Shown piece by piece: positions 33,683 through 38,516 of a stretch of DNA of 64,000 nucleotides (its first letter is position 1; every line of letters begins with the position of its first letter). Position numbers and translations under genes: made by a program. Source of the stretch: Arthrobacter sp. Marseille-P9274 (GTDB lineage Bacteria > Actinomycetota > Actinomycetes > Actinomycetales > Micrococcaceae); the NCBI RefSeq assembly GCF_946892675.1, contig NZ_CAMPOV010000001.1, positions 1,648,033-1,712,032 on the forward strand, written 5' to 3'. The notes beneath the pieces were generated by a model. The model was not told the DNA's origin and did not search any database. It saw only the letters and a program-made list of their open reading frames with translations.

Positions 33683-33701
33683 TTAGGTCAGGCTTACCTA
33701 C
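33683..33701 (+). promoter_or_regulatory. DtxR/IdeR-type iron box
   Basis: TTAGGTCAGGCTTACCTAC matches 16 of 19 positions of the consensus iron box (TTAGGTTAGGCTAACCTAA). It lies 13 bases before the GTG start of the fusion gene and should make its transcription iron-repressed. A TATGCT element follows at once and may be the -10 box. Confidence 0.8.
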
Positions 33702-33714
33702 TTATGCTTCTGCG

Positions 33715-36327
33715 GTGACTATTGAGCTGGATGTTGCCCGCGTCTGTTTCGCCGCCGATCTGGCGGGCCACGGCGACCGCCCCGCCGTTCTCACGGCGGG
33801 CGGGACGCTGACCTACCGCGAGCTGGCGGACCGGGTGGACGACCTCGCGGCCCGGCTGGGTCCGGTGCGGCGGCTCGCCGTGCTGGAGGCGGGCAACGAC
33901 ATCGATTCCCTCGTCGCGTACCTGGCGGCGCTGTCGGCGGGGCATCCGCTCATCCTCGTGCCGGCGGACAAGCCGGCGGCGCTCGAGTCGGTGCTGGCAG
34001 CCTACGATCCGGACGTGGTCCTGCGCCCCGGCGGCGGAGAGCCGGTGTTGCAGGAACGGCGGGAGGGCACGCGACACGAGCTTCATCCGGAACTGGCGCT
34101 GATGCTCAGCACCTCCGGCTCCACCGGCTCGCCCAAGCTGGTGCGCCTCTCGCAGGAGAACCTGCAGTCCAACGCCGAGGCGATCGCGGCGTACCTGGAC
34201 ATCCGGCCCGGTGACCGGGCAGCGACCACGCTGCCCATGTCCTACTGCTACGGCCTTTCGGTCATCAACAGCCACCTGCTGCGCGGCGCCGCACTGGTGC
34301 TCACCGATCTCTCCGTGGTGGACCCGTGCTTCTGGGAACTGTTCAGGCACCAGCGTGCGACGACGTTCGCCGCGGTTCCGTACACGTTCGAACTGCTGGA
34401 GCGGGTCGGGTTCGCGGACATGGACCTGCCCGGTCTGCGGTACCTCACCCAGGCCGGCGGCCGGCTTGATCCGGACACGGCGCGCCGCTACCGGGAGCTG
34501 GGCGAACGCCGCGGCTGGGACCTGTTCGTGATGTACGGGCAGACCGAGGCGACCGCGCGGATGGCGTACCTGCCGCCGCGGCTGGCGGCCAAGAACCCGG
34601 GAACGATCGGGATTCCGGTGCCGGGCGGGGCGTTCCGGATCGATCCGGTGCCCGGCCTGGAGGACGGGGAACTGGTGTACACCGGGCCGAACGTCATGCT
34701 CGGCTATGCGCAGCGGCCGGAGGATCTGGCCCTGGGGCGCATTGTCGACGAACTGCGCACCGGCGACCTGGCCCGGCTGCGCCCCTCCGGCATGTACGAG
34801 GTGGTCGGGCGGCGCAGTCGGTTCGTGAAGATCGTGGGGCTGCGGATCGATCTGGGCCAGGTGGAGAAAATCCTGGCCGGGCTCGGCGTGACGGCGGCCG
34901 CTGCCGGGTCGGACCGGACCCTGATCGTCGCCGTCGAGGGGGACCACGACCCGGGTCTGCTGGGCAAGGTCCTGGCCCAAAGGCAAGGGCTGCCGCGCGC
35001 CGCAGTGGAGGTGCACGCCGTCGCCGACATCCCCCGGCTGGCCAACGGGAAGGTGGACTATCCCGCGGTGCTGACGCTCGCGACGCCGGAACCGGACCCC
35101 TTCGAACCAGCACCGGAGCAGGTGCCCGCCGGGCCGCCGGAAGACGTCCGGACCATCTTCGCCGAGGCCCTGGACTGCGACGACGTGCGGGAGGCGGACA
35201 CGTTCGTCTCGCTGGGCGGGGACTCGCTGTCATACGTGGCAGCGTCGGTCCGGCTCGAGCGGGCGCTCGGCTATCTGCCGGCGGACTGGCATGTCACGCC
35301 GGTGGGCGAACTCGCGCCCCGGGCTCGCCCGGCGGCGACAGGCCGGCGGCGATGGTTCGCGCCCCTGGAGACCGGCGTTGTCCTGCGCGCGCTCGGGATT
35401 GTCGCCATCATCGGCACGCACGCGCAGCTCTTCCACTGGCCGGGGATGGCGCACGTGCTCTTTGCCGTGGCCGGGTTTAACTTCGCCCGCTTTCAGCTCG
35501 GCGGCGACCGGCTCCCGAGGCTGAAGCGGCAGGCGCGCAGCCTCGGACGGATCATCGTGTCGAGCGTGGCCTTTATCGCCGGGGCGTATGTGCTCACCGA
35601 CAGGTACGGTCCGGAGAATATCCTGCTGCTGAACTCCTTTGTGGGCCCGGAGACCTGGTCGACGCGCTGGGACTTCTGGTTCGTCGAGATGCTCGTGTAC
35701 GTGCTGGTGTCCGTGGCGGCGCTGCTCGCTGTTCCCCGGGTGGCGCGGGCCGAGCGGCGCTTCCCGTTCGCCTTCCCGCTGGTGCTGGCCGGCGTCGGGC
35801 TGCTGACCCGGTTCGAGATCCTCGTCCTGCCCGCGCCGAACCCCGCCCCCGTCCTGTGGCTGTTCGCCCTCGGGTGGGCCGCTGCCCGCGCGCCTGCGCT
35901 CCCCCGGCCGGCACCCGCCGGCGGGGTACGGCGCTCCACCCGGTCCGCTTTTGTCCCCCGGTTGCGCAGCTTGGCCCCGCGGCTGACTGTCTCGGCCTTT
36001 GCCGCGCTGACCGTGCCCGGCTTCTTCGGCGAGCCCTCCCGCGACGCCACCATCCTCGCCGGCATCCTCCTGCTCACCTGGCTGCCGGCCCTCCCTGTTC
36101 CCGCCGGCTTCCACCGCCTGCTCGGCGTTCTCGCTGCCTCGTCCCTGTATGCGTACCTCACCCACTGGCTGGTCTACCCCGGCCTCGCCCCGCTAAGTCC
36201 CGCGCTGGCCGTCGCCGCCTCCCTGGCCGCAGGAGTCGCCTACTGGGCCCTGTCCATGCGCCTCATGGCCATGGCGTCCCGCCGGATGACACGGATCCGC
36301 ACCCGCCGATCGATGCCAACCGCGTAA
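33715..36327 (+). CDS. Adenylation - carrier protein - membrane acyltransferase fusion (NRPS-like)
   Basis: An 870-residue multidomain protein. Residues 1-460 are an AMP-binding (adenylation) domain: A3 core LMLSTSGSTGSPKLVRLS, A5 VMYGQTEATARM, A8 GRRSRFVKIVGLRIDLGQ and A10 LANGKVDY. A peptidyl carrier domain follows with the phosphopantetheine serine Ser504 in LGGDSLSY. From about residue 555 to the end there are 9-10 membrane helices beginning VLRALGIVAIIGTHAQLF, which resembles acyltransferase-3 family proteins (Arg then His signature). The layout recalls D-alanylation and poly-lysine systems: load an amino or hydroxy acid, then transfer it at the membrane. An iron box precedes the GTG start. 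No siderophore genes are nearby. Confidence 0.88.
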   Translation: MTIELDVARVCFAADLAGHGDRPAVLTAGGTLTYRELADRVDDLAARLGPVRRLAVLEAGNDIDSLVAYLAALSAGHPLILVPADKPAALESVLAAYDPDVVLRPGGGEPVLQERREGTRHELHPELALMLSTSGSTGSPKLVRLSQENLQSNAEAIAAYLDIRPGDRAATTLPMSYCYGLSVINSHLLRGAALVLTDLSVVDPCFWELFRHQRATTFAAVPYTFELLERVGFADMDLPGLRYLTQAGGRLDPDTARRYRELGERRGWDLFVMYGQTEATARMAYLPPRLAAKNPGTIGIPVPGGAFRIDPVPGLEDGELVYTGPNVMLGYAQRPEDLALGRIVDELRTGDLARLRPSGMYEVVGRRSRFVKIVGLRIDLGQVEKILAGLGVTAAAAGSDRTLIVAVEGDHDPGLLGKVLAQRQGLPRAAVEVHAVADIPRLANGKVDYPAVLTLATPEPDPFEPAPEQVPAGPPEDVRTIFAEALDCDDVREADTFVSLGGDSLSYVAASVRLERALGYLPADWHVTPVGELAPRARPAATGRRRWFAPLETGVVLRALGIVAIIGTHAQLFHWPGMAHVLFAVAGFNFARFQLGGDRLPRLKRQARSLGRIIVSSVAFIAGAYVLTDRYGPENILLLNSFVGPETWSTRWDFWFVEMLVYVLVSVAALLAVPRVARAERRFPFAFPLVLAGVGLLTRFEILVLPAPNPAPVLWLFALGWAAARAPALPRPAPAGGVRRSTRSAFVPRLRSLAPRLTVSAFAALTVPGFFGEPSRDATILAGILLLTWLPALPVPAGFHRLLGVLAASSLYAYLTHWLVYPGLAPLSPALAVAASLAAGVAYWALSMRLMAMASRRMTRIRTRRSMPTA

Positions 36328-37714: not shown

Positions 37715-38516
37715 TCAGGCCGAAGTCCAAGGGGGTCGGGGTCCGGCCAGCAGGGCGGTATAGAGGTTCAGGTGATCGGTTGTCATTCGGTGGGCGCTGA
37801 AGCGTTTTTCGACGGCGGCGCGGCAAGCGCGGCGGTCCAGGAGGGCTGCTTGAGGCAACGGCCGGGCCAGGTCCCGGGGGTCTTGGGCGAGGTAGCCGGT
37901 GCGGCCGTGGTCGATGATTTCCGGCGCGGCTCCGAACGGTGTGGCGACCACCGGTGTTCCGGCGGCCAGTGCTTCGATCATGACCAGGCCGAAGGGTTCG
38001 ACCCATTGGACGGCGTTCAGCAGTGCCATGGCCCCGCCGAGCAGGCGGTACTTATCCGAGCCGCCAACCTCGCCCAGGAACTCCTCGTCGGGCCCGAGCA
38101 TGGGTTCGGCGACGGCGTGGAAATACCGCAGTTCCTCCGGTTCACGCATTTTGGCGGCGATCTTCAGCGGCACCTCCGCTGCCTGGGCAATGGTGATGGC
38201 CTGCGCTATGCCCTTCTCCGGACACATCCTGCCCAGAAAACAGGCATATCCGCCCCGGCCTTCTCCAAAAGCACGGTTGCGGTGTCGATGCCGTGATGGA
38301 TCACGGCCGCGGCCCGCAGACCGGTGCCGGCGATCTGGCGCGGTGCGAGATGGCAACCACCGAGACTTCGCGCGCGGCGGCGCGGTAGATCACGGCCAGC
38401 TGCGGGGTGAGCACCCCGTGAACAGTCGTCACCAATCGAATCGGTGCGCGTCCCGCCCGTACAGCGGCCCCGCCACGGAGTGGTCATGGATGATGTCTAC
38501 ACCCTCCAACCCTTAG
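37715..38516 (-). pseudogene. Glycosyltransferase family 4, frameshifted and 5'-truncated
   Basis: Reading across three frames gives VDIIHDHSVAGPLYGRDAH, VTTVHGVLTPQLAVIYRAAA, LRAAAVIHHGIDTATV, GYACFLGRMCPEKGIAQAI and EPFGLVMIEALAAGTPVVAT. These are donor- and acceptor-side motifs of GT4 glycosyltransferases, including the E-x(7)-E element. At least three frameshifts are needed (near 38430, 38345 and 38260), and the first 80 or so residues are missing. The gene is dead, though the C-terminal half is intact enough to be misannotated. Confidence 0.85.

Follow-up and report, generated by a model that had tools for sequence, protein, structure and literature searches.

A 64,000-nucleotide stretch of Arthrobacter sp. 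Marseille-P9274 (NCBI RefSeq assembly GCF_946892675.1, contig NZ_CAMPOV010000001.1, positions 1,648,033 to 1,712,032, forward strand), referred to here as the window, was analysed for a single gene that encodes a fusion of an adenylation (A) domain, a peptidyl carrier protein (PCP) domain and a membrane domain of the acyltransferase-3 (AT3) type. The gene is preceded by a DtxR/IdeR-type iron box, and relatives of the A-PCP-AT3 fusion were found beside the genes of FbpABC, a ferric iron importer. The following features were located:

33715–36327, plus strand: A-PCP-AT3 fusion gene, an open reading frame (ORF) of 870 aa with GTG start (ORF, Pfam)
33683–33701, plus strand: DtxR/IdeR-type iron box, 16/19 against the consensus, 13 nt upstream of the GTG
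33754–35070, plus strand: adenylation domain, residues 14 to about 452 (PF00501 at 14–331, VinN and LgrA alignments, conservation)
34246–34248, plus strand: pocket residue Cys178 (alignment, conservation)
34558–34560, plus strand: pocket residue Arg282 (alignment, conservation)
35143–35271, plus strand: carrier domain, residues 477–519 (PF00550)
35224–35226, plus strand: carrier Ser504 (conserved in 107/107 fusions)
35380–36216, plus strand: AT3 membrane domain, residues 556–834, with Arg558-x10-His569 (Pfam, model, hydropathy, conservation)

In a Pfam scan of the whole window protein, AMP-binding was matched at residues 14–331 (E 3.3e-47), PP-binding at residues 477–519 (26.8 bits, cut-off 20.8) and Acyl_transf_3 at residues 556–834 (31.2 bits, cut-off 31). 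The motifs LSTSGSTGSPK, MYGQTEAT, GRRSRFVKIVGLRIDLGQVE and NGK with Lys446, which we take to be A3, A5, A8 and A10, respectively, were all present, as was the carrier motif LGGDSL with Ser504; the adenylation motifs and carrier serine of an A-PCP module of the nonribosomal peptide synthetase (NRPS) kind are thus intact. The motifs, coordinates and three-domain chain given by a first-pass annotation, made from the letters alone, were thereby confirmed by ORF and Pfam. Conservation was assessed on 107 non-redundant fusions, window included, in which Ser504, Lys446, Arg558 and His569 are kept without exception. Two genes of the phosphopantetheinyl transferase family (PF01648) are encoded in the window's genome. 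The condensation domain by which a siderophore NRPS pathway would be recognised was absent from the Pfam scan of the window protein. A full-length AlphaFold2 (AF2) model was obtained at a predicted template modelling score (pTM) of 0.55, and because of this value the arrangement of the domains in it was left unused.

The membrane part was scanned against PF01757 in isolation, where the window domain reached 34.8 bits (cut-off 31) and 41 of the 42 AT3 domains of the family matched at E ≤ 0.01; the whole protein of one relative (L051) remained below the cut-off at 24.1 bits. The AF2 model of the domain has a mean predicted local distance difference test (pLDDT) score of 90.9, with 11 helices of at least 12 residues against 9 segments by hydropathy, so that the 9–10 helices counted in the first pass were about right. 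The R-x10-H motif (Arg558, His569), invariant in 107/107 fusions, is described as absolutely conserved in AT3 (PMC9833829, in the part consulted, a limit that applies to all PMC sources cited here), and the RXXR of helix 3 is partly kept (Arg602 in 100/107, Arg605 in 60/107). Together, profile and R-x10-H support assignment of the membrane part, formerly called acyltransferase-like, to the AT3 acyltransferase family. Hydropathy and the charged loops and ends fit cytosolic N and C termini, as a cytosolic A-PCP requires. The domain model had no match among PDB structures at E ≤ 0.001, neither its sequence (E ≤ 5) nor its profile (E ≤ 1) matched a PDB chain, and a fold search with the model returned one 637-residue viral model (E 5.5e-4). 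A search of 296 genomes of the class with the AT3 domain alone gave matches in 46 (own genome included), every one in an open frame of at least 845 aa; this AT3 branch is seen only in fusion-sized proteins among these genomes.

For the iron box, TTAGGTCAGGCTTACCTAC at 33683–33701 was scored against the DtxR/IdeR consensus TTAGGTTAGGCTAACCTAA. It matches at 16 of 19 positions, is the sole site with ≤3 mismatches in the 64-kb window, and was not equalled in 100 shuffles of the window. Conservation of the box was examined in 45 loci without adjacent fbpABC, taken from a scan of GTDB genome contigs and including the window and three broken-frame loci, in a zone that began 200 nt before the match start and ended 20 nt past it. 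A box with ≤4 mismatches was found in 34/45 (0/1,340 in dinucleotide shuffles) and with ≤5 mismatches in 38/45 (2/1,340). The 11 loci beyond the first count have 5–9 mismatches, the closest relative of the window gene among them (L001, 6 mismatches), which speaks against conservation of the box. Many Arthrobacter-type relatives carry it at about −31; in L181 and L183 it lies between fbpC and the fusion, at −31 as in the window. Six sites in the window's genome fit the symmetric consensus with at most 3 mismatches (reversed-pattern control: 1), and three of the five boxes other than that of the fusion precede iron genes by Pfam, namely a set with FecCD, ABC and a siderophore-interacting protein, an ABC ATPase with Peripla_BP_2, and FTR1/imelysin/Dyp peroxidase; on reading the 3-kb stretches at the two remaining boxes (L092, L093), no iron gene was seen. 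With a near-consensus box that is conserved in relatives, the fusion gene is a predicted member of a DtxR/IdeR regulon, and the iron control proposed in the first pass is supported.

Linkage to fbpABC was determined in a class sample of 45 fusion genomes other than the window's, with fbpABC counted within about 10 kb. It was present in 37/45, in four orientations and a mixed arrangement: fusion last in 13, fusion first in 5, divergent in 6, convergent in 10 and mixed in 3. Among the GTDB-scan matches listed, 22 of 66 loci lie near fbpABC; in 15 of these the genes are co-directional and the fusion comes last, 6 are divergent and 1 is mixed. Three subfamilies can be told apart among the linked FbpA proteins (30–36% mean identity between groups), while fusions paired with different subfamilies share up to 65% identity. 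The YY motif that marks ferric-binding proteins is present in 60/61 linked FbpA sequences, that of L028 being partial. Iron boxes with ≤4 mismatches stand before the fusion itself in 13/45 genomes of the class sample and before the fusion or fbpA in 28/45 (≤5 mismatches: 27/45 and 39/45, respectively). Where the fusion is last (n = 13), the box before fbpA has ≤4 mismatches in 8 and ≤5 in 11; likewise, 11 of the 15 co-directional GTDB-scan loci have a ≤5-mismatch box before fbpA, and a separate scan gave a 4-mismatch box before the fbpA match of L028.

Co-occurrence was tested in 60 class genomes with one FbpA query (E ≤ 1e-30), the fusion search being re-run on the same 60. FbpA was found in 22 and the fusion in 13; all 13 fusion genomes have FbpA (six unlinked) versus 9 of the 47 fusion-free genomes (hypergeometric 1e-7, uncorrected for shared ancestry). 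On plasmids, 17 loci were viewed of 90 matching records, and an iron transporter is linked in 3/4 actinobacterial and 2/13 proteobacterial loci: the fusion is accompanied by 'iron ABC transporter' genes on plasmids of Rhodococcus opacus, R. fascians and Mycolicibacterium chubuense, a Pseudarthrobacter defluvii plasmid has it without them, and in the alphaproteobacteria Pararhizobium and Paracoccus an 'Fe(3+) ABC transporter' adjoins it. Taken as a family, the fusion is genetically linked to the FbpABC ferric uptake module, a linkage that the window's genome lacks.

The GTDB contig scan gave at least 80 relatives, and near ones are over-represented since the search patterns were taken from the window protein. 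Of the 80 listed, 63 encode fusions of >780 aa, three have broken frames (L057, L065, L066), one is cut by its contig (L061) and 13 consist of the A domain only, a weak partial match (L079) among them. The fusion is present in Arthrobacter, Streptomyces, mycobacteria and alphaproteobacteria; at E ≤ 1e-150 it was found in 7/9 other genomes of the genus, 1/27 genomes from the family's other genera and 4/22 from the order. In the window and in most Arthrobacter relatives fetched the gene stands alone, and no window ORF up to 8 kb away has relatives in at least three other loci unless it overlaps the fusion gene; fbp genes adjoin it in the Arthrobacter loci L027, L028, L029 and L035 and in L181, L183 and L186 of the window's own genus. 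The description of the gene as standing alone therefore holds for the window and fails for the family, and the search for conserved neighbours that had been proposed gave none for the lone window gene and fbpABC for most of the class sample. Neighbours were screened in 46 loci with ORFs from a simple caller (fusion detected in 44). The clusters occurring in at least four loci were the fusion, fbp-type genes, single-family clusters (read as ZnuA- and Zur-like, among others) and one unidentified five-locus cluster about 8 kb off; beyond fbpABC, no identified neighbour was conserved across lineages in this screen.

A midpoint-rooted FastTree of 108 fusions, the root of which is undecided, was used to place the lone gene. 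Linkage to fbp changes at least 14 times on this tree, and three Micrococcaceae with fbp linkage share a 9-tip clade (support 0.92) with the window's group of 5. The fusion follows fbp genes in three of the eight loci of the genus (L181, L183, L186); the L181/L183 layout resembles an intermediate between the linked and the lone form, in a direction that the tree leaves unsettled. A derived state of the lone gene is suggested.

The likely substrate was approached through the adenylation pocket. Tyr177, Ser182, Ala247, Met273, Ala281 and Arg282 are kept in 107/107 fusions, Thr245 in 106/107 and Tyr179 in 105/107. Cys178 aligns with the pocket Asp of the first A domain of LgrA, and position 178 is C in 96, V in 9 and S in 2 of 107 fusions, never D. 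The Asp at position 235 that marks adenylation of α-amino acids was thus not found in the window protein, which has Cys178 instead. Arg282 aligns with an Arg of VinN, which we take to be the R331 given in a review (PMC11253843), the offset of the chain numbering being our assumption. According to this review, a small or hydrophobic residue replaces Asp235 in α-hydroxy and α-keto acid A domains, and a conserved Pro of α-amino acid domains is altered in an α-keto acid domain; at the matching YGxTE motif the window protein has Gln276 (Q 84, A 23 of 107). Eleven plasmid-borne fusions, proteobacterial ones included, all keep Arg282, Ser504, Arg558 and His569, with residue 178 being S in 8 and C in 3. 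Because the pocket lacks the Asp that holds the amino group and has an invariant Arg282, we infer that an ordinary α-amino acid is a poorer fit than a hydroxy, keto or dicarboxylic acid. Of the amino or hydroxy acid first proposed, the hydroxy acid accordingly still fits the pocket, whereas an ordinary α-amino acid is not supported, and the parallel drawn to D-alanylation is not borne out as a close one. An aryl acid, prompted by Tyr179 and Ser182, was considered and set aside because Tyr is common at the former position in the superfamily and Arg282 suits a carboxylate better.

From these data we propose, with a probability of about 0.5, that the fusion is an iron-starvation enzyme which loads one carboxylic acid, passes it on through its own AT3 domain and so yields a surface-held or exported Fe3+ ligand for FbpABC. 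The proposal rests on the linkage, the three FbpA subfamilies, the co-occurrence, the boxes, the occurrence of this AT3 branch only in fusion-sized frames among the genomes searched, the invariant catalytic residues, the PF01648 genes and the AT3 pore model, in which acyl-CoA enters the membrane domain and the acyl group is presented outside (PMC9833829). At low iron, DtxR/IdeR would leave the conserved box and the gene would be expressed. The A domain would then adenylate one carboxylic acid other than a standard α-amino acid. Hydroxy, keto and dicarboxylic acids are the most likely candidates, with a second charged group that would meet Arg282. Ser504 of the same chain would receive the acid in thioester linkage. 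By analogy with AT3 biology, the membrane domain would take the acyl group from the phosphopantetheine arm of the carrier, in place of acyl-CoA, and carry it through the membrane to an acceptor that is extracytoplasmic or lies in the membrane. The product may be a small Fe3+ ligand, exported or held at the surface, from which FbpA would receive iron and so feed FbpB and FbpC. The coupling to FbpABC is directly visible in the genomes; the further steps are predictions. The Fe3+ taken by FbpA-type proteins bears few or no organic ligands; a ligand serving them can therefore be small, and one activation module would suffice.

Several observations weigh against this proposal. The 13/45 count of ≤4-mismatch boxes before the fusion itself is low. 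The co-occurrence comes from a single FbpA query without correction for ancestry, and identity is only 32–37% in three of the unlinked FbpA matches. The window's own genome has FbpABC on a different contig from the fusion, with no box (≤6 mismatches) in the 800 bases around the FbpABC start. Eight of the 45 class-sample fusions have no fbpA in the stretch read (L178 is contig-cut), some convergent pairs are separated by 1–4 kb, and 11 of the 13 proteobacterial plasmid loci viewed are unlinked. One locus (L042) retains the fusion with neither fbpABC nor a box, and the A-domain-only relatives that were read lie in apparent glycan-modification islands, not in iron loci. As a separate observation, L042 (Mycolicibacterium wolinskyi) was read to have the same ComM-like and CoA-transferase-like flanks as L043, with a sulfatase-like ORF in place of the fbpABC of L043.

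The main rival is envelope decoration, one of two outcomes named in the first pass beside a small amide chelator, and we consider it unlikely. A small acid would be esterified under iron limitation to a wall glycan, a teichoic-type polymer or a lipid, and the altered surface charge would allow Fe3+ to reach FbpA or to bind at the surface, in a Dlt-like process with AT3 replacing DltB. It would accord with the extracytoplasmic glycans that characterised AT3 proteins mostly acylate (PMC9558356) and with the SDR-, LuxE- and LuxC-like genes (SDR, short-chain dehydrogenase/reductase) that adjoin the A-domain-only relatives in apparent surface-glycan islands. However, bacteria whose envelopes differ share the same fusion, catalytic residues kept, and the 46-locus screen of the class sample gave no identified glycan gene as a recurrent neighbour of the fusion. 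Envelope polymers differ among Arthrobacter, Streptomyces, mycobacteria and alphaproteobacteria; since the fusion occurs across these types, a small ligand is somewhat more likely than decoration.

A stand-alone NRPS-like enzyme of secondary metabolism, whose product is no iron ligand and whose box and fbpABC linkage reflect co-regulation only, would be in keeping with the A-PCP build and with the patchy distribution in genus, family and order. It is improbable, as the several orientations, the three FbpA subfamilies and the unlinked co-occurrence exceed what shared regulation needs. Modification of FbpA or another lipoprotein by AT3 with the loaded acid, a maturation of the binding protein with no free ligand, is very improbable: FbpA is present in all 13 fusion genomes of the 60-genome sample and the FbpA of L051 was read to start with an apparent lipoprotein signal, yet FbpA also occurs in 9/47 fusion-free genomes and three divergent FbpA subfamilies pair with the fusion.

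Returning to the small ligand, a wider version of the proposal is more tentative, possible though we would lean against it: the fusion may be a portable one-protein iron-ligand factory, shared between Actinobacteria and Alphaproteobacteria, in which the AT3 enzyme takes its acyl donor from a carrier in the same chain, makes a minimal Fe3+ ligand and brings it across the membrane to naked-iron FbpABC importers. To our knowledge, the acquisition of Fe3+ by FbpABC importers in bacteria without an outer-membrane receptor is poorly explained. If the proposal is true, a single gene would replace a siderophore pathway, and AT3 chemistry would extend from acyl-CoA donors to carrier-bound ones. The titles and abstract openings turned up by searches of the open-access literature held no description of an A-PCP-AT3 fusion or of its link to fbpABC, and the consulted part of a DmdR1-regulon study mentions no such protein (PMC12161575). 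Each part belongs to a familiar kind; in the literature searched, neither their combination nor its pairing with fbpABC appears to have been described.

Among known systems, Dlt (DltA-DltC-DltB) resembles the fusion in that one small acid is activated, loaded on a carrier and passed outward by a membrane acyltransferase. It differs in its separate proteins, its MBOAT in place of AT3 and its D-alanine substrate, whereas the fusion has one chain, a Cys178/Arg282 pocket and an iron box. Petrobactin AsbC-AsbD-AsbE shares adenylation, carrier and transfer of one acid to give a small amide chelator under iron limitation, and differs in having separate soluble proteins, an aryl acid and no AT3. The AT3 enzymes OafB, OatA and the VanT type (PF01757) have R-x10-H and a multi-helix membrane domain in common with the fusion; those described use acyl-CoA as donor, unlike the carrier donor proposed here. 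In the parts consulted, two AT3 surveys name SGNH, racemase and NRF fusions, none with A-PCP. The best PDB match to residues 120–455 was VinN (3wvn), a 3-methylaspartate adenylation enzyme with the MYGQTE motif and the aligned Arg in common; VinN keeps Asp230 for the amino group where the fusion has Cys178, and its chain has no AT3. AimS, an acyltransferase of Acinetobacter, has a gene induced by iron and zinc limitation; the part of the report consulted names no A-PCP, and AimS is reported to act via pilin repression and energy sparing (PMC13345540).

The A-domain-only relatives, 34–43% identical to the window protein, probably correspond to the AMP-dependent synthetase (orf3, CaiC) of flagellin glycosylation islands. 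These have no fused carrier or AT3, and their neighbours were read as acyl carrier protein (ACP), SDR, LuxE and LuxC. Islands similar to the A-only loci are described (PMC7874193, PMC4875605), and from gene order the orf3/CaiC genes probably belong to the same family. Sixteen aligned non-fusion sequences, three of which are cut fusions, have nearly the same pocket as the fusion and keep Arg282 in 16, Ser182 in 15, Met273 in 15, Thr245 in 14 and Tyr179 in 13, and the acyl substrate of the A-only cassettes may match that of the fusion. ORFs were read in 8 of the 13 A-only loci, with LuxE and LuxC confirmed by Pfam for L070 only; in L067, L069–L073 and L080 the relatives were read to share a cassette with LuxE-like and LuxC-like genes, in most cases also with SDR and in some with ACP.

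A stand-alone A-PCP protein (PF00501, PF00550) is also encoded in the window's genome (L101:1960-6718, from C1:1376000-1386000); behind it lie an ORF read as dioxygenase-like and a protein of the ornithine cyclodeaminase family. The A-PCP protein was tried as a partner of the fusion and rejected, no ≤4-mismatch box being present in the 10 kb read. In L138–L146, tentatively a Streptomyces-like family, the fusion and fbpABC lie near genes that read as ZnuA and Zur. Arthrobacter liuii has three fusion copies in one draft genome (L020, L022, L065), one with a broken frame, and a genome of the genus (G003) has two, L180 without nearby fbpA and L181 behind fbpABC. Downstream of the fusion in the window, an ORF at 37715–38356 (minus strand) may be a decayed gene; by reading, it resembles the C-terminal region of a glycosyltransferase and has an odd N-terminus.

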